DNA from: Lacisediminihabitans profunda
Lineage (GTDB): Bacteria; Actinomycetota; Actinomycetes; Actinomycetales; Microbacteriaceae
Reading direction: 5' to 3'
Assembly (NCBI RefSeq): GCF_008040105.1
Contig: NZ_VRMG01000004.1
Location: forward strand, 1-64,000
DNA length: 64,000 nt
Within the stretch, counting starts at the first letter, position 1. Every line of letters starts with the position of its first letter. Shown piece by piece: positions 1,883 through 25,662 of this stretch. The position numbers and the translations under genes were made by a program. Under the pieces are notes generated by a model. It was not told the origin of the DNA. It saw nothing but the letters and a program-made list of their open reading frames with translations, and did not search any database.

Positions 1883-2263
1883 GTGGTGCCCGCGCGCGGA
1901 TTGTCGGGGAACGAGCTCTCCCGCCAGCGAGCCGCGCTGTGGGCGGAACTCGAGGATCTGCGCCGCCAGCTGGATTCGGCGGCGGGGGAGTTGGCTGCCG
2001 TACGGGTGGCGAGAGGCGACTCCTCGGCGGACGACGAACACGATCCGGACGGCTCGACCCTGTCATCCGACTGGTCGCGGATCTCGGGTTTGGCGGCCGC
2101 GTTGGGCGAACGGCGAGCGGGGGTCGAGCGCGCGCTCGAGCGCATCGACTCGGGGACCTACGGCGCATGTGCACGATGTGGCAGACCCATCGGACGGGCG
2201 CGTCTCGGCGCCAGACCCGCCGCCGACCTCTGCATCGAGTGCGCGCGCGAGATGTCTCGCTAG
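1883..2263 (+). CDS. TraR/DksA-type zinc-finger protein
   Basis: This 126-residue protein has an N-terminal helical/coiled-coil segment (residues 10-90) and a C-terminal four-cysteine zinc finger: C96, C99, C117 and C120 in the pattern CxxC-x17-CxxC (YGACARCG ... DLCIEC). This is the DksA/TraR C4 finger. DksA proteins bind RNA polymerase through the secondary channel. Small actinobacterial members are often of unproven function and may be general stress proteins. The GTG start lies 10 nt after the stop of the DhaM-like gene, so the two are probably co-transcribed. The acidic tip residues of true DksA are not obvious, so I give the family rather than the gene. Confidence 0.8.
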   Translation: MVPARGLSGNELSRQRAALWAELEDLRRQLDSAAGELAAVRVARGDSSADDEHDPDGSTLSSDWSRISGLAAALGERRAGVERALERIDSGTYGACARCGRPIGRARLGARPAADLCIECAREMSR

Positions 2264-2273
2264 TGCTGGCGGG

Positions 2274-2681
2274 TCAGAGCGCGTCGAGGTAGTACCAGCG
2301 CCCGCCTTCGCGCACGAAACGGCTCGACTCGTGCTGGTCTCCTGCCCCGTCCGGCGAGCGGAACCAGGCCCGGAACTCGACGATGCCCTCGGTGTCGAGC
2401 ATCGACCCTCGGACGGTTCCGAGAATGTCGAGCCTGGTCCAGCGGCGAGCCGGATCGAGTTCCAGCTCACCCGGTGCGGTGGACGGATGCCACGTGCGCA
2501 GCAGGTACTCGGCGTCGCCCACCGCAAAAGCGGAGAACCTGGACCGCATCAGGCGCTCGGCGGTGGGTGCTGCGGAGTCCCCGCGGTGGAACGGCGCGCA
2601 GCACGCGCCGAAGGTCTCGCCGCTCAGGCACGGGCAGCGGCCGGCCGGGCTCAGGGTGGCACGTCGATCGGGTGGAGTCAC
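2274..2681 (-). CDS. YchJ-like / UPF0225 family protein with SEC-C motif
   Basis: The 135-residue protein carries near its N-terminus the SEC-C zinc motif (CPCLSGETFGACC, residues 16-28), followed by an NTF2-like fold with MRSRFSAFAVGDAEYLLRTW, typical of the YchJ/UPF0225 family. The length matches the family. Function is unknown; SEC-C motifs bind zinc and often mediate protein contacts. The start is GTG at 2681. It converges on the DksA-type gene, leaving only 10 bp between their stops. Confidence 0.85.
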   Translation of the reverse strand: MTPPDRRATLSPAGRCPCLSGETFGACCAPFHRGDSAAPTAERLMRSRFSAFAVGDAEYLLRTWHPSTAPGELELDPARRWTRLDILGTVRGSMLDTEGIVEFRAWFRSPDGAGDQHESSRFVREGGRWYYLDAL

Positions 2682-2768
2682 CCGTCAATTATCTTCCCCA
2701 CCTGCCTGGGCAGGGATTCGCCGCCTGGGCCCGATGAGTCTGACGATGGAGGTCGGTGACTACTCGAC

Positions 2769-2785
2769 TGCAACTAAAGGGTTGC
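2769..2785. promoter_or_regulatory. second half-site copy of the SRPBCC/ArsR operator
   Basis: TGCAACTA at 2769-2776 repeats the left arm of the palindrome at 2803-2820 and is followed by AAGGGTTGC, which forms a weaker opposing arm. Its spacing of 34 bp from the main palindrome, about three helical turns, suggests a second ArsR binding site in the promoter of the SRPBCC/ArsR pair. This is inference from repeat structure. Confidence 0.4.
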
Positions 2786-2802
2786 TTTAAACGGTCAGTT
2801 AA

Positions 2803-2820
2803 TGCAACTATTTAGTTGCA
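2803..2820. promoter_or_regulatory. predicted ArsR-family operator
   Basis: A perfect 8-bp inverted repeat, TGCAACTA-TT-TAGTTGCA, lies 26 bp upstream of the SRPBCC start codon. ArsR-type repressors paired with SRPBCC genes generally bind AT-rich palindromes of this kind in their own promoter. The downstream gene pair makes autoregulation the simplest reading. Confidence 0.6.
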
Positions 2821-2845
2821 CTAATCGACCGAAAGGAACAAGATA

Positions 2846-3313
2846 ATGACCATGACATCCAATGAACCGTCCGTCGTCGACAGCGGCGACTTCAGCGTGC
2901 GACGCACCATCACGATCGCCGCACCGCCCGAGAAGGTCTGGGCCGCGATCACCGAACCCGAGCACATCGTGGGGTGGTTCGGCCAAGGCGCGACGCTCGA
3001 GGCGGTGGCCGTCGGCGCAGATGGAGTCTTCTCCTTCGACGGGTGGGGCGACTTCCCGGTGCGGATCGAGGAGCTTGACGCGCCGCGGATGATCGCCTAC
3101 CGCTGGGGAAACCAGAGCGGCTCCGCGCTCGACCGCGACCACTCGACGGTCTTCCGCTTCACCCTCGAACCCCAGGGGGAGGGAACTCGGCTCACGGTAG
3201 TCGAGTCGGGTTTCAACACGCTCGCCGATCCGGCTGCCAGCATGGAGAGCAACCGCGGTGGCTGGGACTCCGAGCTCGACGAGCTTGTGGCCTACCTCGA
3301 GGGCGGCTCGTGA
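2846..3313 (+). CDS. SRPBCC (AHSA1-like) domain protein
   Basis: The 155-residue protein is an AHSA1-type START/Bet v 1 fold: VRRTITIAAPPEKVWAAIT at residues 18-36, then a WFGQG segment and a C-terminal helix (GGWDSELDELVAYLEG). These proteins form a hydrophobic pocket, but the ligand is seldom known. The ATG at 2846 has AAGGA 8 nt upstream. Its stop overlaps the GTG of the next gene (GTGA), so it is translationally coupled to the ArsR regulator. This two-gene layout is common and usually autoregulated. Confidence 0.88.
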   Translation: MTMTSNEPSVVDSGDFSVRRTITIAAPPEKVWAAITEPEHIVGWFGQGATLEAVAVGADGVFSFDGWGDFPVRIEELDAPRMIAYRWGNQSGSALDRDHSTVFRFTLEPQGEGTRLTVVESGFNTLADPAASMESNRGGWDSELDELVAYLEGGS

Positions 3314-3627
3314 CCGCGAACACTCTCGTGCCGGTGTTCGCCGCGCTCGGCGACGAGACCCGGTGGAGCATCCTGGTGGCCCTCGGCGGGGGCGACGCGT
3401 CGGCGTCCGCCCTCGCCGGGCGGCTCCCGGTCACCCGCCAGGCCATCGCGAAGCACCTCGCGGTGCTGCAGCAGGCCGGTCTCGTCGAGCCGGTGCGGGT
3501 GGGGCGCGAGCTGCGCTACCGAGTTCTCGGGGCGCAGCTCACCGAGACCGCCCGACGCCTGGATCAGATCGGTGTGGAGTGGGAGCGCCGACTGGCGGCG
3601 ATCAAGCGGATCGCGGAGGGGCTCTAG
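3310..3627 (+). CDS. ArsR-family winged-helix transcriptional regulator
   Basis: The 105-residue protein is a compact ArsR/HTH_20 winged helix: FAALGDETRWSILVALGGG at the N-terminus, recognition region LPVTRQAIAKHLAVLQQAGLVE around residues 40-62, and the wing VRVGRELRYRVL. It lacks metal-binding cysteines, as expected for the non-metal SdpR/PadR-like group paired with SRPBCC proteins. Its GTG start overlaps the upstream stop by 4 bp. It probably represses its own operon through the palindrome at 2803-2820. Confidence 0.9.
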   Translation: MTANTLVPVFAALGDETRWSILVALGGGDASASALAGRLPVTRQAIAKHLAVLQQAGLVEPVRVGRELRYRVLGAQLTETARRLDQIGVEWERRLAAIKRIAEGL

Positions 3628-3669
3628 CGGGTGGGGGAGTGCGGCTCTGTCGGTTCCATCGCATCCAGG

Positions 3670-3852
3670 TCAGGCAGATGTCGAGCAGACCCCCGCATCC
3701 TGCCGGTTGAGAAACTCCAACTGGAGGATGAGATGCGGTGGGCCTCGTCCGAACCACACCGCGCGCACTGGCTCGTTGACCACGAACGCAGTAGCATGCT
3801 CGGCGAACGTGACACGATTCGAGGAGGTGAGCCCGATGCACACACCGTCCAT
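3670..3852 (-). CDS. hypothetical small protein (60 aa)
   Basis: An open frame in the roughly 310-bp gap between the ArsR gene and the patatin gene, on the opposite strand. ATG at 3852 is preceded by AAGGAG with 8-nt spacing, and about three quarters of its codons end in G or C. The protein (MDGVCIGLTSSNRV... to GVCSTSA) is not one I recognise and has no clear motif. A strong ribosome site on the other strand (see 3836-3889) competes with this reading. It may be real, or a chance ORF. Confidence 0.3.
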   Translation of the reverse strand: MDGVCIGLTSSNRVTFAEHATAFVVNEPVRAVWFGRGPPHLILQLEFLNRQDAGVCSTSA

Positions 3853-3889
3853 TCCGGGCGCTCCTTCGAGTTCACGATCGCGCGACTGA
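3836..3889 (+). CDS. possible 17-residue leader peptide with near-perfect Shine-Dalgarno
   Basis: AGGAGGTGA at 3822-3830, an almost full anti-16S match, stands 5 nt before an ATG that opens an 18-codon frame (MHTPSIPGAPSSSRSRD, stop TGA). The patatin-like gene starts 48 bp further on. This could be a translated leader or the remnant of a gene. The ribosome site is seen; the function is unknown. Confidence 0.25.
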   Translation: MHTPSIPGAPSSSRSRD

Positions 3890-3937
3890 CGTAGCCGTCG
3901 CGGGGAGCGCTGCACACACTCTCAGAAAGCTACGACC

Positions 3938-4864
3938 ATGAATGATTCACTTCAGTTCGCCCCGAAGACCCCTATGCACGTCTCGGAAGTTCACTCGCGC
4001 ACCGCCCTTGTTCTCGGGGGCGGGGGAGCGGCGGGCAATGCCTGGGAACTCGGACTCATCGCCGGCCTGTCTTGGGCCGGGTTGGACGTGACCGGCGCCG
4101 ACCTGATCATCGGGACATCGGCAGGATCGACGGTGGCTGCCCAGATCACCGGTGGCCCAGGGCCGGCCGAGTTGTATTCCGCCATCCTGGGCGCCGCGCC
4201 CCAACCTCGTCCCGCTCCCGGTGGATCCGTCGGTGCGCGCGTGGGCGTGGCGCCGGTGGCTGACCACATGGAAAGAACGAGCCGGATCATCGCTGCCGCC
4301 GCAGATGCCGCAGACATGCGGCGCAGGATGGGCGCCGCCGCGCTCGAGATGGGGACTTCAACCGGCACGCGCTGGCGCGACACCGTCGCGGCTCGTCTTC
4401 CCAGCCACCACTGGCCGCATCAGACCATGCTCATCACGGCGGTCGATGCCTACACCGGCGAGCAGGTCGTGTTCGACCGCCACAGCGGAGTCGACCTCGT
4501 GGATGCCGTCGCTGCCAGCACCTCCAGCGGCGCGGCGTACGCCATCGGCGCGGGCCGCTACATCGACGGCGGATATCGAAGAAACGAGAACGCCGATCTG
4601 GCGGCCGGATACTCGCGGGTGCTGGTGCTGTCACCGTTCGGCGGCAGGTCGCGGCATCCGCTGGACTGGGGGATGCACCTGGAGTCGCAGCTCGACGAGC
4701 TACGGGCCGGCGGCAGCCTGGTGGAAACGATCTTTCCGGACAGCAATGCCCTCGACGCCTTTGGAGACAACATGATGGACCTGTCGACGCGCCCACCGGC
4801 CGCTCGAGCCGGCTACGACCACGGCGCATCCCTGGCCGAGCGGCTCATCGAATTCTGGCGGTGA
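3938..4864 (+). CDS. patatin-like phospholipase family protein
   Basis: This 308-residue protein has the patatin signature in order: oxyanion loop GGGGAAG at 27-33, nucleophile elbow GTSAG at 59-63 with Ser 61, and DGG with catalytic Asp near 210 (YIDGGYRRNENADLA). The dyad Ser-Asp acyl hydrolase acts on phospholipids or other acyl esters. There is no signal peptide, so it is cytoplasmic or membrane-associated. The length fits the bacterial RssA/YchK-like group. It converges on the UPF0303 gene, with the dif-like region between them. The substrate cannot be told from the sequence. Confidence 0.9.
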   Translation: MNDSLQFAPKTPMHVSEVHSRTALVLGGGGAAGNAWELGLIAGLSWAGLDVTGADLIIGTSAGSTVAAQITGGPGPAELYSAILGAAPQPRPAPGGSVGARVGVAPVADHMERTSRIIAAAADAADMRRRMGAAALEMGTSTGTRWRDTVAARLPSHHWPHQTMLITAVDAYTGEQVVFDRHSGVDLVDAVAASTSSGAAYAIGAGRYIDGGYRRNENADLAAGYSRVLVLSPFGGRSRHPLDWGMHLESQLDELRAGGSLVETIFPDSNALDAFGDNMMDLSTRPPAARAGYDHGASLAERLIEFWR

Positions 4865-4927
4865 CGCGAACGGAACGCGTCGCCGGAGTACTTCGAGACG
4901 GAGTCACTACGTCACCCTGAGCCCGCT

Positions 4928-4955
4928 ACTTGACATAATGGGCATTATCAGCGCC
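4928..4955. other. dif: dif-like XerC/XerD recombination site
   Basis: On the reverse strand the 28 bp read as a left arm containing GATAAT, a 2-3 nt centre, and the right arm CATTATGTCAAGT. From memory, the actinobacterial dif consensus has exactly this form: GATAAT, about two variable bases, then ACATTATGTCAAGT. Here the whole right (XerD) arm except one central base matches, and GATAAT is intact at the right distance. It lies in the gap between the convergent patatin and UPF0303 genes, a usual place for dif. The nearby helY-tat-paf-mshC-uppP genes are terminus-proximal in Mycobacterium, which agrees. Alternatively it could be a secondary Xer site left by a mobile element. Confidence 0.68.
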
Positions 4956-5048
4956 CGACTATGCCGGGCGACGCAGGCCAGGCGGATCTGTCCGGGCGCG
5001 CCTCGGTTGGCCGCGGCATCCGTCCTCACGGCCCGATCCGGCGGCATT

Positions 5049-5139
5049 CCCTTCCGAAATCCATGCATTCCTGACCGACACGCCGCCCTGAGACGTCGAC
5101 ACGCCGCGACGGCAGAGAAATGCATGGATTTCGGAAGGG
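5049..5139. repeat. perfect 21-bp inverted repeat with 49-bp spacer
   Basis: The arm at 5049-5069 (beginning CCCTTCCGAAATCC) is the exact reverse complement of 5119-5139 (ending TTTCGGAAGGG). Each arm contains the palindrome ATGCAT. The spacer is GC-rich. It stands between the dif-like site and the second half-site, and between two convergent genes, so it may end transcription from either side, or be part of a small mobile element. Confidence 0.8.
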
Positions 5140-5154
5140 GAGAACGGGCGCATT

Positions 5155-5167
5155 ACTTGACATAATG
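5155..5167. repeat. second copy of the dif right-arm sequence (half-site)
   Basis: ACTTGACATAATG here repeats 4928-4940 exactly and in the same orientation, 227 bp further on. The partner (XerC-side) arm is degenerate: CGATGCTATT instead of GGCATTATC. It ends 5 bp before the stop codon of the UPF0303 gene. A full site plus a half-matching site flanking a short segment is what Xer-mediated integration leaves behind, but a simple duplication would look the same. Confidence 0.6.
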
Positions 5168-5172
5168 CGATG

Positions 5173-5655
5173 CTATTGCCCCTCGGTGAGCCCCAGGAAG
5201 ATCTCGATGGCCTCGACGACGAGGGCGTGATCGGCGGCCTGGGCCAGTCCGGACACCGTGACCGTGCCGATCGGGCCTGCGTCGCGGATGGCGATGGGGA
5301 ACGATCCGCCGTGGGCCGCGTATACGGTGAGATCGTTCCAGGCGCGCTCCTCGAACGGGGTGCCGGTGGCCCGGTGCCGCAGTCCGACCAGGAACGAACT
5401 GTTGCCGAACCGGCGGACGGTGCGCACCTTGCGCGCCACCCACTGGTCATTGTCGGCCGCCGTGCCGGCCAGGGCGGCGTGGAAGAGCTGCTGGTCGCCC
5501 CGGGTGATGTCTATCGTCACCGGGAGGGATCGCTCGCTCGCGATCGAGACGAGCAGGCTTCCCAGCTCCCAGGCGTCGTCGTGGGTGAAGCGCGTGAAGA
5601 GCAGTCGCGCCTCCTGGGCTTCGATCTCGGCGATCTGGTCGGTGGTCTCGGTCAT
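5173..5655 (-). CDS. UPF0303 family (heme-degrading-domain-like) protein
   Basis: This 160-residue protein has the length and features of the UPF0303/YBR137w family: a leading helical segment, then FTHDDAWELGSLLVSIASERSLPVTIDI, a GTAADNDQWVARKVRTVRRFG block and the C-terminal AAHGGSFPIAI-VTVSGLAQAADHALVVEAI. The fold resembles the HbpS/GlcG heme-binding domain. The biochemical role in bacteria is unsettled. Its stop codon almost touches the half dif site at 5155-5167. It is followed upstream by a NUDIX gene on the same strand, 22 bp away, probably in one transcript. Confidence 0.85.
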   Translation of the reverse strand: MTETTDQIAEIEAQEARLLFTRFTHDDAWELGSLLVSIASERSLPVTIDITRGDQQLFHAALAGTAADNDQWVARKVRTVRRFGNSSFLVGLRHRATGTPFEERAWNDLTVYAAHGGSFPIAIRDAGPIGTVTVSGLAQAADHALVVEAIEIFLGLTEGQ

Positions 5656-14171: not shown

Positions 14172-16607
14172 TCAGGCGACCGAGGAGTACGCGACGATGC
14201 CGCGGCGGATCGCGTCGAGTGCCGTGCGCGCCGTGCGCCCGACCTGGCCGTCCGCCACGACCGAGAGCTGGTCGAGCAGGTCGATCGTCTGCTTGGTCAT
14301 CCGCACGAAGTCGCCGGCCGCCAGGTCCGCCTCGCTCAGCACCGCGTCGAGCGACACCCCCTGCGCCCAGCGGTTCATGGCGAGGGACAGCCCGGTGGAG
14401 AGCGGATTGCTACCCGGCAGCTTGTGGTCGCGCTCTATGTCGTCGAGCCGCGCCCACAGGTCGGTGGTCTTGTCGAAGGCGGGCCGGAAGGCACCCTTCG
14501 GAAGGTAGCGGTCCGAGGCCTGCCCCTCGTCCCGGCGGGGCTCGTAGACCAGCGCGGCGGCCATCGCGGCGAGCCCGGCCGGGTCGAGGTCCTTCCAGAC
14601 GCCGCGCCTCAGGCACTCGGCGACGAGCAGGTCGCGTTCGCCGTAGATGCGGCGCAGGGTGCGACCGTGCACGGTCGCGGTGACGACACCGCGGTCAGAC
14701 CGCTCCAGGTAGCCGAGCTCGAGCAGCACGTCGGAGACGCGATCGAAGATCCTCGCGACGGCACCGGTGCGGCTCCGGATCTGCTGGCTCAGCTCATCCG
14801 TCTGCTTCTTGAGGCGCCACCACCGCTCGGCCCAGCGCGCGTGCGCCTCGCGGTCGTTGCAGGAGTTGCACGGGTGCTGCTTGAGCTTTCGGCGAAGCGC
14901 GGTGAGCTGGTGTTGGCGCTTCTCCCGTTCGGCCCGGCTCTGGGTGTCCGCCCGGGCGGCGCCCTTGCGTTCGACGTCTGTCAGTTCGCGTCGGATGCCG
15001 GAATACTCGCGGAAGTCGCCGAGGTGGCACCGCATCGCCTCCTCGTAGCCCGCGAGCGACTCCTCCTGGCTGCGCACCTTGCGGGCGAGGTCCACGACGG
15101 CGCGGTCCGCCTGGAACTGCGCGAACGAGGACTCGAGAATGTCGCGGGTGCGTTCGCGACCGAACTGCTCGATGAGGTTCACCGCCATGTTGTAGGTGGG
15201 CGAGAAGCTCGAGTTGAGCGGATAGGTGCGCCGGGAGGCGAGGGAGGCGACCGCCTGCGGGTCGAGACCGTCCTGCCACTGGATCACGGAGTGACCCTCC
15301 ACGTCGATGCCGCGACGTCCGGCGCGGCCGGTCAACTGGGTGTACTCCCCCGGCGTGATCGGCACCCTGGCCTCGCCGTTGAACTTCTCGAGCTTCTCCA
15401 GCACGACCGTACGCGCGGGCATGTTGATGCCGAGCGCGAGGGTCTCGGTGGCGAAGACCGCCTTCACGAGCTTCTTTTGGAAGAGTTCCTCCACCACCTC
15501 CTTGAAGGCGGGGAGCATCCCGGCGTGGTGGGCGGCCACGCCACGTTGCAGGCCCTCGAGCCACTCCCAGTAGCCGAGCACCGCGAGGTCCTCGTCGAGG
15601 ATGGTGCGGCAGCGTTCCTCCACGATCGCCCGGATCTCGTCGCGCTCCGGCGCGGTCGTCAGACGCACGCCGGCGCGAAGCACCTGCTTCACTGCCTGGT
15701 CGCAGCCGAGACGGCTGAAGATGAAGAAGATCGCCGGCAGCAGGTTGCGTTCGCCGAGCATCTTCACCACCGCGGCTCGGTCCATCTTGAGCTGCTCCGG
15801 CCGGCCGCCGCGCGAATGGTAGCGCCCCACATCCTTCATCTGGCGGGAGTTGATCGTGCGTCCGCCGTAGCGGGCCATCTGCACGAGCTCCGGATTGACC
15901 CGGTTCGTCGCCGCGAGCCCGGACGAGTCGAACAGGTCGATGAGCTTGGTGCGCATGATCACGTGCTGGTCGAGGGGAACCGGGCGCTCCTCGGAAACGA
16001 TCACCGCGGTCTCGCCGCGCACAGCCTGCAGCCAGTCGCCGAACTCCTCGGCGTTCGACACCGTCGCACTCAACGACACCAGCCGCACGTTCTGCGGGAG
16101 GTGGATGATGACCTCTTCCCAGACGGCTCCGCGGAAGCGGTCGGCGAGGTAGTGCACCTCGTCCATGATCACGAACGAGAGGTCGGTGAGCAGGTCGGAC
16201 TCGGCATAGAGCATGTTGCGCAGCACCTCGGTCGTCATCACGACGACCCGGGCACCCGAGTTGATGTTGGTGTCGCCGGTGAGCAGTCCCACATCCTGAG
16301 CACCGTACTCGGCGACGAACTCCTGGAACTTCTGATTGCTCAGGGCCTTCATCGGGGCCGTGTAGAACACCTTGGCCCGGGGATCCTGCATCGCCAGGAA
16401 GACCGCGAACTCGGCGACGATCGTCTTGCCGGCCCCGGTGGGCGCGGCGACGAGAACGCTGTCGCCGTTCTCGAGCGCAACGCAGGACGCGATCTGGAAC
16501 GGGTCGAGGTCGAAGGCGAGGTTCGCCCGAAATCGTTCGAGCCTCGGGGAGCCCTGGCGGGACCTGGATGCGGCGAAACGTTCGGCGGGAGAGAGCTGGT
16601 CGGTCAT
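14172..16607 (-). CDS. helY: DEAD/DEAH-box RNA helicase, Ski2/Mtr4-like
   Basis: This 811-residue superfamily 2 helicase shows DPFQIASC before Walker A, APTGAGKT (motif I), APMKALSNQKF (Ia), MDEVHYLAD (DEVH, motif II), SLSATVSN (SAT, III), and the C-terminal motifs ATETLALGINMPARTVV and QLTGRAGRRGID. The long C-terminal region with CNSCND resembles the HelY/Mtr4 group of actinobacteria. It probably unwinds structured RNA with a 3'-5' polarity. Its ATG overlaps the TatC stop (ATGA), as in the conserved pafB-pafC-tatA-tatC-helY order. Confidence 0.93.
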   Translation of the reverse strand: MTDQLSPAERFAASRSRQGSPRLERFRANLAFDLDPFQIASCVALENGDSVLVAAPTGAGKTIVAEFAVFLAMQDPRAKVFYTAPMKALSNQKFQEFVAEYGAQDVGLLTGDTNINSGARVVVMTTEVLRNMLYAESDLLTDLSFVIMDEVHYLADRFRGAVWEEVIIHLPQNVRLVSLSATVSNAEEFGDWLQAVRGETAVIVSEERPVPLDQHVIMRTKLIDLFDSSGLAATNRVNPELVQMARYGGRTINSRQMKDVGRYHSRGGRPEQLKMDRAAVVKMLGERNLLPAIFFIFSRLGCDQAVKQVLRAGVRLTTAPERDEIRAIVEERCRTILDEDLAVLGYWEWLEGLQRGVAAHHAGMLPAFKEVVEELFQKKLVKAVFATETLALGINMPARTVVLEKLEKFNGEARVPITPGEYTQLTGRAGRRGIDVEGHSVIQWQDGLDPQAVASLASRRTYPLNSSFSPTYNMAVNLIEQFGRERTRDILESSFAQFQADRAVVDLARKVRSQEESLAGYEEAMRCHLGDFREYSGIRRELTDVERKGAARADTQSRAEREKRQHQLTALRRKLKQHPCNSCNDREAHARWAERWWRLKKQTDELSQQIRSRTGAVARIFDRVSDVLLELGYLERSDRGVVTATVHGRTLRRIYGERDLLVAECLRRGVWKDLDPAGLAAMAAALVYEPRRDEGQASDRYLPKGAFRPAFDKTTDLWARLDDIERDHKLPGSNPLSTGLSLAMNRWAQGVSLDAVLSEADLAAGDFVRMTKQTIDLLDQLSVVADGQVGRTARTALDAIRRGIVAYSSVA

Positions 16608-17727: not shown

Positions 17728-18075
17728 TCAGTTGTCTTCGAACCAGCGGCGAGTGTTCGCATCGACCGCCGTGATCCGGCGGGCGCGGTCGAGCCGGGCA
17801 TCGTGCCGGGCCTGGCGGCGGTCCGCCGCCTGTTGCCGAACCCGGTCCCGGCGCGCGACGACTTCGGACCTCTTCTGCAGCAGCGCGAGGGTGGCGTGCT
17901 GCTCGTCGAGCGTCTCGCCCGCCGACTCGAGAAGCTCCGTCTTGGCGGCGAGTGCCTCGAGCGCCCCGAAGACGGCCAGCACCTTGCGGAACAACTGCCA
18001 GCCGAAGAGCCCGAGCATTACGAGCAGGGCAAGCCCGAGCACCACCCAGATGATGAGCCACGACCACCAGGGCAT
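17728..18075 (-). CDS. small membrane-anchored coiled-coil protein, conserved position upstream of tatA
   Basis: This 115-residue protein begins at an ATG that shares one base with the pafC stop (TGATG), indicating translational coupling. One N-terminal helix, WSWLIIWVVLGLALLVMLGLF, anchors it. Residues 40-105 are highly charged helix (LEALAAKTELLESAGETLDEQHATLALLQKRSEVV) suggesting a coiled coil facing the cytoplasm. No known domain is recognised. The position between pafC and tatA is seen in other actinobacteria, so it is probably a real but unnamed member of this operon. Confidence 0.75.
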   Translation of the reverse strand: MPWWSWLIIWVVLGLALLVMLGLFGWQLFRKVLAVFGALEALAAKTELLESAGETLDEQHATLALLQKRSEVVARRDRVRQQAADRRQARHDARLDRARRITAVDANTRRWFEDN

Positions 18076-19055
18076 CAGTCGGCCTCGTAGCGCGCGGCGC
18101 CGGCCGCGGCCCACTCGGCGACCGCTCGCCTGGCCTCCGGCGGGCCGACGACCGTGACGACCCCGGGCATCCCGGCGACGAGCCGTTTGAGCCCGTGGTA
18201 GTGCGACACCCGCACCGCCGTGCGGAGGCGTCCGTTCACCTCGGTGGACACGGCGTCGTCCGGGATGTAGTCGGCGAGCAGCGGCGCGGCCGCCGGGGCG
18301 ACGTCGAGCGTCACGATGAGGTCGTCGGCCGACCCCTCGAAGAGCACATCGGGGAGCAACACGTCGGCGGGGTGGAAGGCTATCGGCGCGGTCGTGATCT
18401 GGGGATTGCCGATGCGGTCGAGCCGGAACGTGCGCACCGCCTCGCGCAGGTGGCACCAGCCGCGCAGGTACCAGTCCGCATCGACGGACTCGACTCGAAG
18501 CGGGTCCACCCGGCGGCGCTCGTGTTCGCCCCGCGCATTGAGGTAGTCGAATTCCAGCTGGACTCCGGTGGCCACCGACTCGCGGATGAGAGCGAGGGTG
18601 GCGTCGGACTCCGAAGCCTCGACCGCGACCTGGCTCGGCACCCCGGAGGCACCCCGGGAGAGTTTGGTCATGAGCGTCGCGATCGCGCCGCGGTCGGCGT
18701 TCTCCGGCAGGGCGGAGAGGTACTGGAGCCCGGCGATCAGCGCGGCGGCCTCCCGGCCGGAGAACCGTGGGGCGTCATCGATCGCGACGAGGTTGGTGAG
18801 CACGATCTGGTCGTTCTCTTCGAAGTCGTCCCAGGCCAGGTCGAACAGGTCGCCGTGCTGGTACTGGCCGGTCTCGCCCGGGATGCCGGACACCGCGATG
18901 AGCTTCACGGCCTCCCTGATCTGCTGTGCCGGAACACCGAAGTGCTCGGCGGCCTGCTGCACGCTGATGCGTTCGTGTTCCATGAGGAACGGCACGAGCG
19001 AGAGCAGGAAGGCGAGTTTGTCCTGCGCGTGGAGTGGAGCCTGGCGTTCAGCCAC
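18075..19055 (-). CDS. pafC: WYL-domain transcriptional regulator PafC
   Basis: The 326-residue protein has an N-terminal winged-helix region (KLAFLLSLVPFLMEHERISVQQAAEHFGVPAQQIREAVKLI) and a central WYL domain (VQLEFDYLNARGEHERRRVDPLRVESVDADWYLRGWCHLREAVRTFRLDRI), followed by a WCX-type C-terminus. PafB and PafC form a heterodimer that activates DNA-damage genes independently of LexA/RecA in actinobacteria. It overlaps pafB by 8 bp at its start. The order pafB-pafC-tatA-tatC is conserved. Confidence 0.92.
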   Translation of the reverse strand: MAERQAPLHAQDKLAFLLSLVPFLMEHERISVQQAAEHFGVPAQQIREAVKLIAVSGIPGETGQYQHGDLFDLAWDDFEENDQIVLTNLVAIDDAPRFSGREAAALIAGLQYLSALPENADRGAIATLMTKLSRGASGVPSQVAVEASESDATLALIRESVATGVQLEFDYLNARGEHERRRVDPLRVESVDADWYLRGWCHLREAVRTFRLDRIGNPQITTAPIAFHPADVLLPDVLFEGSADDLIVTLDVAPAAAPLLADYIPDDAVSTEVNGRLRTAVRVSHYHGLKRLVAGMPGVVTVVGPPEARRAVAEWAAAGAARYEAD

Positions 19056-20067
19056 GATCGGCTCCCTCGTCGGCGTCGGAGTGTTCGGCTGCCGTCCTCA
19101 GCAGCCGGGTGTGCACGGCAGCCCGCAACACCGGCGGTGACAGGACGAGCACCTCCGGCCCGTAGCCGGCGAGCTCGTCCGCGAAGATGTTGGCGTCGGA
19201 GTAGTGGAGTCGCAGCACGCCATTCGCGAGGGTCTCGGTGCCGCGGCGCTTGTGCAGGCGAGTCGCCGCATCCGAGTCCGGCACCACCTCGATCTCGGCG
19301 GTGTGCGACTCCCACACCTGCTCCAGCTCGCTCAGCGCGGCCTTCGTCTGGTCGACCAGGGGCGCCGGGAAGGTGGCGCCGGTCGTCGTCACCTGGCTCA
19401 CGATCCGGCGCAGCAGGAACGTCTTGGTGCGCTGGGTGTCCGGTTCCAGCGCGTGCAGATGCCAGCGGCCCTGGTGCTGCACGAGGGCGAGCGGTGCCAC
19501 CGTGCGCACCCGCGCCTGCTCCTCCCCGGGCTTGAGGTAGGCGAATCGAACGACGGCGTTGCGCTCGAGCGCGGCGCGCAGCGGCTCGAACGCCGCATCC
19601 CGCACCCGCAGGCGCGGGGCGTAGCCGAGCACAGGCTCGTCGGAGACCAGCCCGAGACCCTTGAGCTTCATCACGGCGCGACGCGATTCGCCCGAGAGGG
19701 AGCCCTCCCGCCACACCATGGCGGCGAGGTTGAGCAGCGTCGTCTCCTCGGCCGAGAAGGTGATGTCGCTCGGGAGCTCGTAGGCACCGCGCGGGATTCG
19801 GTAGCGCAGGTTCTGGTTGTTGCCGGGCTGGCCGGGCGATTCCACCGTCTCGAGCGGCACGCCGAGGTCGCGGATGTCGTCCTTGTCGCGCTCGAACTGC
19901 CGCTCGAGGTTGGCGTTGTCTCCCCCGGCTCTGAACCGCTGGCGATAGCCCTGCACGGTGGACAGCACTTCGTTCTTCGTGAGCCCCGTCTCGGTCGCGA
20001 GTAAGGCGAGAACGAGGCTGAAGAGACGCTCTTCGACCGGGACCTTCTGGGTGCTGGATGCTGACAC
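19048..20067 (-). CDS. pafB: WYL-domain transcriptional regulator PafB
   Basis: This protein, 339 residues from the chosen start, begins with a winged helix (VEERLFSLVLALLATETGLTKNEVLSTV and FERDKDDIRDLGVPLE) and carries a WYL domain (NAVVRFAYLKPGEEQARVRTVAPLALVQHQGRWHLHALEPDT). I placed the start at the GTG 20067, which has AGGG 8 nt upstream and matches the usual N-terminus; a longer frame from 20103 adds 12 unlikely residues. With PafC it is the mitomycin-type DNA-damage response activator of actinobacteria. Confidence 0.92.
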   Translation of the reverse strand: MSASSTQKVPVEERLFSLVLALLATETGLTKNEVLSTVQGYRQRFRAGGDNANLERQFERDKDDIRDLGVPLETVESPGQPGNNQNLRYRIPRGAYELPSDITFSAEETTLLNLAAMVWREGSLSGESRRAVMKLKGLGLVSDEPVLGYAPRLRVRDAAFEPLRAALERNAVVRFAYLKPGEEQARVRTVAPLALVQHQGRWHLHALEPDTQRTKTFLLRRIVSQVTTTGATFPAPLVDQTKAALSELEQVWESHTAEIEVVPDSDAATRLHKRRGTETLANGVLRLHYSDANIFADELAGYGPEVLVLSPPVLRAAVHTRLLRTAAEHSDADEGADRG

Positions 20068-20130
20068 GAGAGAAACCCTAGTTTGGAATGAACTTGGAGA
20101 CACTCGGCCTGTGTCTGCGGAGTGGGTGGA

Positions 20131-24372: not shown

Positions 24373-25662
24373 TCAGTCGGCGGGCAGGGACCGCAGCCGG
24401 ATGCCCAGCAGGGCGTGAATCGCGGTGACGAGCGTCACCGTGCAGTGCGCTCCGCTCGCGATCCGGGCGTCGATGGCCCGGAGGGCGGACGGCGAGTCGA
24501 GGTCGTCGGCGAGCAGTTCGCGGAGCTCGGTCGTTCCCTCGTCCACGGTGCCGCTCTCGGCCTGGTCGGTACCGGCGCTGGCTGCCCAGTCGTCCCAGGC
24601 GGCGAGGCGGGCCTCGGCCGTGCTGAGGTGCGCATCCGTCCACTCCCAGTCCGAGCGGTAGTGGTCGGAGAGCAGCGCGAGGCGGATCGCGCGCGGATCG
24701 GTTCCCTCGGCGACGAGCTTCGACACCAGCACCAGGTTGCCGAGAGACTTGCTCATCTTCTCGCCGCGATAGGCCACGAGCCCCGCGTGCGAGTAGATCT
24801 GCGCGAGGGCGTGACCGGTGAGGGCCGCGACGTGACCCGCGCTGAACTCATGGTGCGGAAAGATCAGGTCGGATCCGCCGCCGTTGACGGTGATGGGTGT
24901 CGGCAGGTACTTCGCGGCGATCACGGCGCATTCGATGTGCCAGCCGGGGCGCCCGCGGCCGAGCACGGTGTCCCAGTGTGGCTCGCCCGGCCGTCTGGAG
25001 CGCCAGAGAATCGGGTCCAGGGCGTCGTGCTTGCCCGGGCGCTGCGGGTCTCCCCCGCGTTGGGCGCTCAGCTCGAGCATCGTGGCCCGGTCGAGGTTGC
25101 TTTCCGCACCGAGGTGCCACGGCGGGGGAACTCCGGGCTGATGGGCACCGGCGGCCTCGGCCGCCGCGCTGTCGAAGTAGAGGTCGGGGGCGGCATCCGG
25201 ACTGTCGACCGGGTAAGCGATTCCGCGGTCGAGAAGCTCTCGCACCGCCTCGGCGACCTCGGTCACGACCTCGGTGACTGCGACGTAGTGGTCCGGCGGA
25301 ATGATCTGCAGCCGCTCCATATCGGCACGGAACAGGTCGGTCTGGCCGGCGGCAAGCTCGCGCCAGTCCACCCCATCCCGGGCGGCGCGTTCGAGGAGCG
25401 GGTCATCCACGTCCGTGGTGTTCTGCACGAAGTCGACCGGATAGCCGGCGTCGAGCCACACCCTGATCAGGGTGTCGTAGGCGAGGTAAGTCGCCGCGTG
25501 ACCCAGATGAGTCGTGTCGTACGGGGTGATGCCGCACACGTAGATTGCCGCGCGGCCGTCTGGTCGAGCGGTCACGAGGGAGCGGGATGCCGAGTCGTAG
25601 AGTCGGGGGGCGGAGCCGGTGCCGGGCAGCCGCGGCACCTCGGGTCGGGTCCAGGCTCTCAC
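24373..25662 (-). CDS. mshC: mycothiol ligase: cysteine:GlcN-Ins ligase MshC
   Basis: The 429-residue protein resembles cysteinyl-tRNA synthetase but shows MshC features: the VCGITPYDTTHLGHAATY segment (zinc Cys 43, HIGH-like HLGH 52-55), and GEKMSKSLGNL near 303 (KMSKS). It ends soon after the catalytic domain, without the tRNA-binding anticodon region of CysRS. It joins cysteine to glucosaminyl-inositol in mycothiol synthesis. Gene neighbours PAC2 and uppP match the mycobacterial mshC locus. The start is at 25662, just after AGTGAGAGCC. Confidence 0.95.
   Translation of the reverse strand: MRAWTRPEVPRLPGTGSAPRLYDSASRSLVTARPDGRAAIYVCGITPYDTTHLGHAATYLAYDTLIRVWLDAGYPVDFVQNTTDVDDPLLERAARDGVDWRELAAGQTDLFRADMERLQIIPPDHYVAVTEVVTEVAEAVRELLDRGIAYPVDSPDAAPDLYFDSAAAEAAGAHQPGVPPPWHLGAESNLDRATMLELSAQRGGDPQRPGKHDALDPILWRSRRPGEPHWDTVLGRGRPGWHIECAVIAAKYLPTPITVNGGGSDLIFPHHEFSAGHVAALTGHALAQIYSHAGLVAYRGEKMSKSLGNLVLVSKLVAEGTDPRAIRLALLSDHYRSDWEWTDAHLSTAEARLAAWDDWAASAGTDQAESGTVDEGTTELRELLADDLDSPSALRAIDARIASGAHCTVTLVTAIHALLGIRLRSLPAD

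Follow-up and report, generated by a model that had tools for sequence, protein, structure and literature searches.

A candidate XerD-only half-site beside the dif site of Lacisediminihabitans profunda and some of its actinobacterial relatives

The stretch of Lacisediminihabitans profunda DNA analysed here (the window, 64,000 nucleotides, the first 64 kb of a 419,255-base contig) very probably carries, judged by sequence and context, the chromosomal dif site at 4928–4955, and a further copy of the XerD arm of that site lies at a distance of 227 bp, on the XerC flank and on the same strand. The dif itself is ordinary; the half-site hints at an unrecognised control element at the chromosome end. 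The account judged probable here is that dif would be operated through XerC, XerD, FtsK and the word GGGGGAG, with the half-site serving as a roadblock or unloader formed by XerD, which would act on SMC-ScpAB more likely than on FtsK.

The dif site and its surroundings

The features around the site are as follows.

3938–4864, plus strand: patatin-like phospholipase gene (PF01734), convergent neighbour on the XerD side
4928–4955, minus strand: dif, reading GGCGCTGATAA-TGCCCA-TTATGTCAAGT
4928–4938, minus strand: XerD arm of dif, TTATGTCAAGT
4939–4944, minus strand: central region of dif, TGCCCA
4945–4955, minus strand: XerC arm of dif, GGCGCTGATAA
4956–5154, no strand: interval from half-site to dif, with 0 GGGGGAG
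5049–5139, no strand: a palindromic repeat with 24-nt arms and a 43-nt spacer, dispersed in the genome and present once inside that interval
5155–5165, minus strand: putative XerD-only half-site, TTATGTCAAGT, the only genomic copy of the XerD arm apart from that in dif
5173–5655, minus strand: heme-degrading domain gene (NF002696, over the cut-off), neighbour on the XerC side

The site consists of 28 bp, in which two 11-bp arms flank 6 bp, and it fits the actinobacterial consensus, with the layout GATAATnnnCATTATGTCAAGT; the match to this layout that the earlier note had claimed is present at 4928–4955 as described. The dif of Frankia alni, quoted in PMC3025954, served as the actinobacterial reference, and the window dif resembles it in its length of 28 bp, the GATAA in the XerC arm, the 6-bp centre, the XerD arm TTATGTCAAGT, and in being noncoding and single, with no difference in the layout of the 28-mer. 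The text of PMC3025954, as far as it was available, makes no mention of a flanking half-site beside the Frankia site. When the whole genome of L. profunda (a draft of 4,016,580 bases in 171 contigs, 98.97% complete) was scanned with the full dif pattern at up to two mismatches, a single match was obtained, at the window site, and the draft held neither a better dif elsewhere nor many copies. The XerD arm has two exact copies in the same 4,016,580 bases, both inside the window and on one strand (4928–4938 and 5155–5165), and because the arm occurs twice and the full pattern once in a genome of this size, dif is not a chance match. The 13-mer CATTATGTCAAGT is present in 9 of 13 genomes of the genus, the present one included, and the other eight carriers (8 of 12) have it once each, after GC[TC]GATAAT and three bases.

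The dif site is located in the stretch 4865–5172 that separates the patatin-like gene on the plus strand from the heme-degrading domain gene on the minus strand, which bears out the position between two convergent genes proposed earlier; just 4.9 kb of the contig lie to the left of dif. Among the genes that the earlier note had named in the neighbourhood, helY is retained as an assignment consistent with the Hel308-like helicase encoded at 14172–16607, which scores below every family cut-off, paf corresponds to PafC/WYL regulators at 18075–20103, and mshC is consistent with a class I tRNA-synthetase domain protein at 24373–25662. The genes in the first 25 kb rightward are mostly directed at dif by a rough count of open reading frames, again as had been claimed.

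The half-site was an addition to the earlier note, which had described dif alone. Its extended form is CATTATGTCAAGTAA (5153–5167), and the XerC arm is absent at 5155–5165, the end of the neighbouring gene lying on that side instead: the stop codon of the heme-degrading domain gene stands 7 bp from the half-site core. The interval between the half-site and dif holds no recognised gene and only the host repeat, whose arms CTTCCGAAATCCATGC...GCATGGATTTCGGAAG, with a variable middle, give 41 forward and 43 reverse matches in the genome at up to one mismatch. The repeat was not found in the 12 other genomes of the genus when 16 exact bases were searched for, and it is therefore probably not part of the dif system; it resembles a recently spread REP- or MITE-like element. 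A reading of the 227-bp interval as a single mobile unit was rejected, since its palindrome is dispersed in this genome and absent from those 12.

Half-sites in related genomes and covariation with dif

The 13-mer was searched for in 398 genomes of the family, of which 86 were carriers, and in 4 of these 86 it occurs exactly twice, less than 3 kb apart and on one strand, with the half-site on the XerC side. Some dif loci of the family set are the same in sequence as those of Frondihabitans sucicola, Salinibacterium soli and a Glaciihabitans MAG, which makes Microbacteriaceae the probable family. The word TATGTCAA, counted within 1.5 kb of 88 family difs, was found 24 times on the XerC side and on the same strand, 2 times inverted on the XerC side and 0 times on the XerD side, as compared with about 0.4 per class for shuffled 8-mers; loci L123 and L124, which have no GATAAT arm, were set aside from this count and entered the largest one below, with their true dif located. 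When all 7- and 8-mers were ranked over 163 loci (5 duplicates having been dropped), the half-site motif came first on the XerC side. A phylum-wide set of 80 loci, taken from 119 and including 5 duplicates of family loci, gave 10 matches in 9 loci on the XerC side and the same strand, 1 inverted and 1 on the XerD side, with 2 of the 10 lying in Jiangella coding sequence more than 1 kb from dif, and 45 previously unused loci (5 duplicates dropped) gave 5, 1 and 0. Finally, TTATGTC was counted within 1 kb of dif at 258 loci, some of them short of the full 1-kb flank; 49 matches lay on the XerC side and were oriented like dif, and each of the three other classes held 4. The 49 oriented matches sit in 47 of the 258 loci, so that about four fifths of the loci are without a half-site by TTATGTC; the half-site of G062 (L075), 2.96 kb from its dif, is beyond the 1-kb limit and outside this count. 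The loci surveyed are related by descent, and the counts are thus not independent.

Half-sites occur in 11 of the 27 genera of the family set defined by the exact arm (3-kb limit), at 7 of 9 difs in the genus of the window, and, outside the family, in Pseudarthrobacter, Arthrobacter, Trueperella and a few others. Since most of the surveyed difs have none, including the remaining 2 of 9 in the same genus, the half-site cannot be essential to dif function. The spacing between half-site and dif ranges from 167 to 757 bp and shows no helical phasing (Rayleigh p 0.11 at 10.5 bp), and in an alignment of 26 half-sites the columns −16 to −9 are unconserved, i.e., there is no conserved XerC arm. The three other classes account for 12 of the 61 TTATGTC matches; the exceptions that match TTATGTCAA are L126, L128 and L220 (inverted, XerC side) and L197 (same strand, XerD side), and L287 carries TTATGTC once on either side of dif. 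A position-weight scan of the loci without an exact half-site added few more, the counts of 21, 15, 10 and 7 at scores above 6 being weakly biased towards one side and showing little preference of strand. A predicted open reading frame contains the half-site in 10 of 33 loci, two of which (Jiangella) have it more than 1 kb from dif.

Other elements on the same flank were considered. Five words taken from the XerC arm are somewhat over-represented on the XerC flank (GATAATG 17 versus 4), but half-sites of the XerC arm were rejected because the five words lack strand bias. A conserved hairpin around the half-site was likewise rejected, as few copies pair well beyond TTA/TAA, and the further upstream words TGGATAA, GACTGGAT and TTTTGGAT proved to be scattered. 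The word GACTGGAT with its surroundings resembles the terminal part of a UvrA-like gene, which may often stand next to dif (on the XerC side at L053, L105, L106, L121, L075, L156, L178 and L206).

The end of the XerD arm varies, and a search of 110 family genomes at two mismatches found a match in 75. At arm position 9, the 44 matches beside a dif with A comprised 43 half-sites with A and 1 with G, and where the dif has G the half-site has G as well in 4 of 4 cases, from three genera; the table of 43/1 versus 0/4 gives a Fisher p of 2.6e-5 with kinship ignored, and one match, at L258 (TTATGTCC, with no A at position 8), falls outside it. Position 10 shows no covariation: in loci L123 and L124 of genus g2 the dif has changed to TTATGTCAACT and the half-site is still TTATGTCAAGT, and L043, L054 and L071 present the reverse case. 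The simplest reading of these sequences is that XerD would bind both dif and the half-site.

Chromosome position and the word GGGGGAG

The placement of dif on the chromosome was approached through relatives. In all 21 that were measured (20 single-contig assemblies and G002, with two contigs), the distance from dif to dnaA was 0.375–0.493 of the contig, with a median of 0.43; 12 of 33 relatives had been left out, 11 as their assemblies are split over several contigs and G189 as its exact 13-mer is the half-site. For L. profunda, a draft of 171 contigs, the position relative to oriC is read from these 21 relatives only. GC skew was too weak and noisy in the sampled stretches of its contig and of relative G002, and the polarity of GGGGGAG was therefore used in its place. 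The genome encodes XerD, at 330 bits a narrow margin over the NCBIfam cut-off of 329.6, and a second recombinase for which XerC is the best fit (296 bits, below the cut-off of 335); downstream of xerD are a parA-like gene and then scpA and scpB. The identity of dif is thus supported by its single copy, its actinobacterial layout, the presence of xerD and an xerC-like gene, the position of the relatives' homologues roughly opposite dnaA, and a switch in the polarity of a KOPS-like word.

This word emerged from a comparison of words around difs, in which G-rich words were directed at dif and GGGGGAG was the strongest. Its copies in the window are distributed as follows.

1984–4028, plus strand: four copies of GGGGGAG (starts 1984, 3175, 3633 and 4022), all pointing right, at dif
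5990–58578, minus strand: 22 copies of GGGGGAG (lowest coordinates from 5990 for the first to 58572 for the last), all pointing left, at dif

The direction of the word therefore flips at dif, with 4 of 4 copies on the plus strand to the left and 22 of 22 on the minus strand to the right, so that 26 of 26 point towards the site. Rightward of dif in the same genome, about 219 kb of sampled sequence (window included) contain 65 copies towards and 1 away. Around the difs of 87 relatives, up to 3 kb, the count was 303 towards and 1 away, although GGGGGAG had been chosen as the strongest word on much the same loci; 45 further loci gave 146 towards and 4 away. The word resembles the KOPS of E. coli, GGGNAGGG, in being G-rich, in pointing at dif from both arms and in having fewer copies close by on the XerC side, and it differs in its sequence, GGGGGAG. 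We infer, from these sequence patterns, that GGGGGAG would be the KOPS of these bacteria, used by FtsK. The surveyed literature on KOPS and skewed words, mostly from open-access journals and in the portions available, makes no mention of GGGGGAG.

The approach to dif is asymmetric. GGGGGA or GGGGAG pointing at dif from 14–100 bp away was counted 89 times on the XerD side and 2 times on the XerC side (258 loci, 22 kb on each side), and GGGGGAG is absent from the intervals between half-site and dif in relatives (0 in 13.1 kb), versus 8 copies in XerD-side stretches of matched length. The KOPS-poor zone next to the XerC arm is equally poor at loci that have no half-site, so that the zone and the half-site run in parallel rather than being causally linked, and the half-site as the cause of a KOPS-free zone was rejected on this ground. 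To control for base composition, AGGGGG and GAGGGG, the same words reversed, were counted at 20–200 bp and were also commoner on the XerD side (60 versus 8), and part of the asymmetry may therefore be general G-richness and not KOPS. C-rich words, equivalent to KOPS-like GGGGAG or GGGGGA towards dif and including plain CCCCC, were seen just past the XerD arm, in its first 32 bases, at 38 of 163 loci.

Possible roles of the half-site

The possibility that the half-site is the scar of a mobile element, a phage or an Xer-dependent module that had integrated at dif so that half-site and dif would be attachment junctions, is considered quite improbable. In 4 of 4 exact 13-mer doublets of the family the copies lie near each other and share one orientation, one doublet having 2.96 kb between them, and both Xer-dependent elements and insertion sequences near dif are known, as far as the available text of PMC9765430 and PMC10132070 goes. 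Dif-like sites were also found in 42 viral contigs of GC at least 0.55, and extra contigs of G019, G094, G110 and G134 may hold others. However, an element lacking the XerC arm should, by our own reasoning, leave the XerC side with the full site and the XerD side with the half-site, and this order is reversed in the window and, on the same strand, in 49 cases versus 4 in the expected order among the 258 loci. None of the 42 viral contigs has TTATGTCA within 1.5 kb of its dif-like site, in a set where several contigs are near-copies, some flanks are short and chance matches are possible; moreover, the half-site follows the position-9 variant of the dif in its own genome, and the interval here holds the host repeat and no recognised gene. 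The dif-like sequence CCGATAATCTCCATTATGTCATATGC and its near variants recur in viral contigs L344, L346, L357, L367, L374–L377, L391, L405 and L413, and its recurrence among viral contigs rich in GC points to a family of phages that may use Xer. In the bacterial assemblies, dif-like sites at one or two mismatches lie on G019:C2, G094:C13 and C48, G110:C2, and G134:C10 and C12, and are possibly borne by plasmids or phages.

That the motif serves another protein, or else contributes to a promoter directed away from dif or to a terminator-like palindrome after the upstream gene, is very unlikely. The reverse strand of the half-site does contain TTGACA, the −35 consensus, in 11 of 33 loci the half-site lies 8–34 bp downstream of a predicted gene that is directed towards dif, and short perfect palindromes surround a few copies (5149–5169 in the window, L034 and L120). 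Pairing beyond TTA/TAA is nevertheless near chance (6 to 11 of 26 copies per position), what is conserved is the XerD arm and thus more than TTGACA, and a promoter agrees poorly with the side and strand bias of the motif and with the missing −10-like column within 16 bp; nor would a promoter be expected to covary with position 9 of the dif arm. A role in Xer recombination itself, as at cer and psi, in which XerD at the half-site would wrap with dif into a synapse that permits resolution only, has also been weighed and seems unlikely. In both situations there is extra DNA beside the core site, and the half-site is mostly in the orientation of dif. The accessory DNA of cer adjoins the XerC side, the side on which the half-site lies. 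According to the available text of PMC5357621, this accessory DNA is ~180 bp long and binds PepA and ArgR, so that cer relies on other proteins, whereas the extra element here repeats the XerD arm, at a distance that varies. The spread of spacings without helical phase, and the many surveyed difs that have no half-site, also argue against an accessory function.

The preferred account is the one in which XerD acts on a motor protein. XerC and XerD would resolve chromosome dimers at dif once FtsK arrives, steered by the KOPS-like GGGGGAG aimed at dif from both sides, and XerD would in addition occupy 5155–5165 as a putative accessory XerD-only site. Without an XerC arm the half-site should not serve as a recombination site, and since no recombination is expected without the XerC partner, docking of XerD would be a natural role for it. 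The bound XerD may then be a roadblock or an unloader for a motor coming from the XerC side. The XDS sites that Karaboja et al. are said to have described in 2021 are XerD sites near the B. subtilis terminus which reportedly unload SMC without an XerC arm. The putative XerD-only site is like them in matching the XerD arm of dif, in having no XerC arm and in lying near the terminus. It is unlike them in that a single site is concerned, no farther than about 1 kb from dif, which in most cases is found on the XerC side and shares the orientation of dif. By analogy with the unloading of SMC by XerD at the B. subtilis terminus, as given in the available portions of PMC10945525, PMC8357415, PMC12322038 and PMC11898615, the likelier target would be SMC-ScpAB; alternatively, FtsK may be stopped before it reaches the XerC face of dif. 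A possible link to SMC is also seen in this genome, where scpA and scpB come after xerD and the parA-like gene. Both the occupancy by XerD and the choice of motor are what we infer by this comparison. Such a half-site finds no mention in the literature on Xer, dif and half-sites that was surveyed, which was mostly from open-access journals and available in part.

A wider proposal is tentative, and somewhat less likely to hold than to fail: in part of the Micrococcales and some other actinobacteria, an oriented XerD-only site on the XerC flank, no more than about 1 kb from dif, may clear SMC (or halt FtsK) from that side, while KOPS-like words approach the XerD arm. If true, dif would lie in an asymmetric landing zone, where one recombinase both resolves dimers and removes motors. 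The analysis also suggests GGGGGAG as a candidate KOPS word for these bacteria. The half-site would bear on whether the actinobacterial dif needs one-sided clearing, and an XerD-only partner site beside dif would offer a specific DNA target for testing the unloading of SMC by XerD outside Bacillus.
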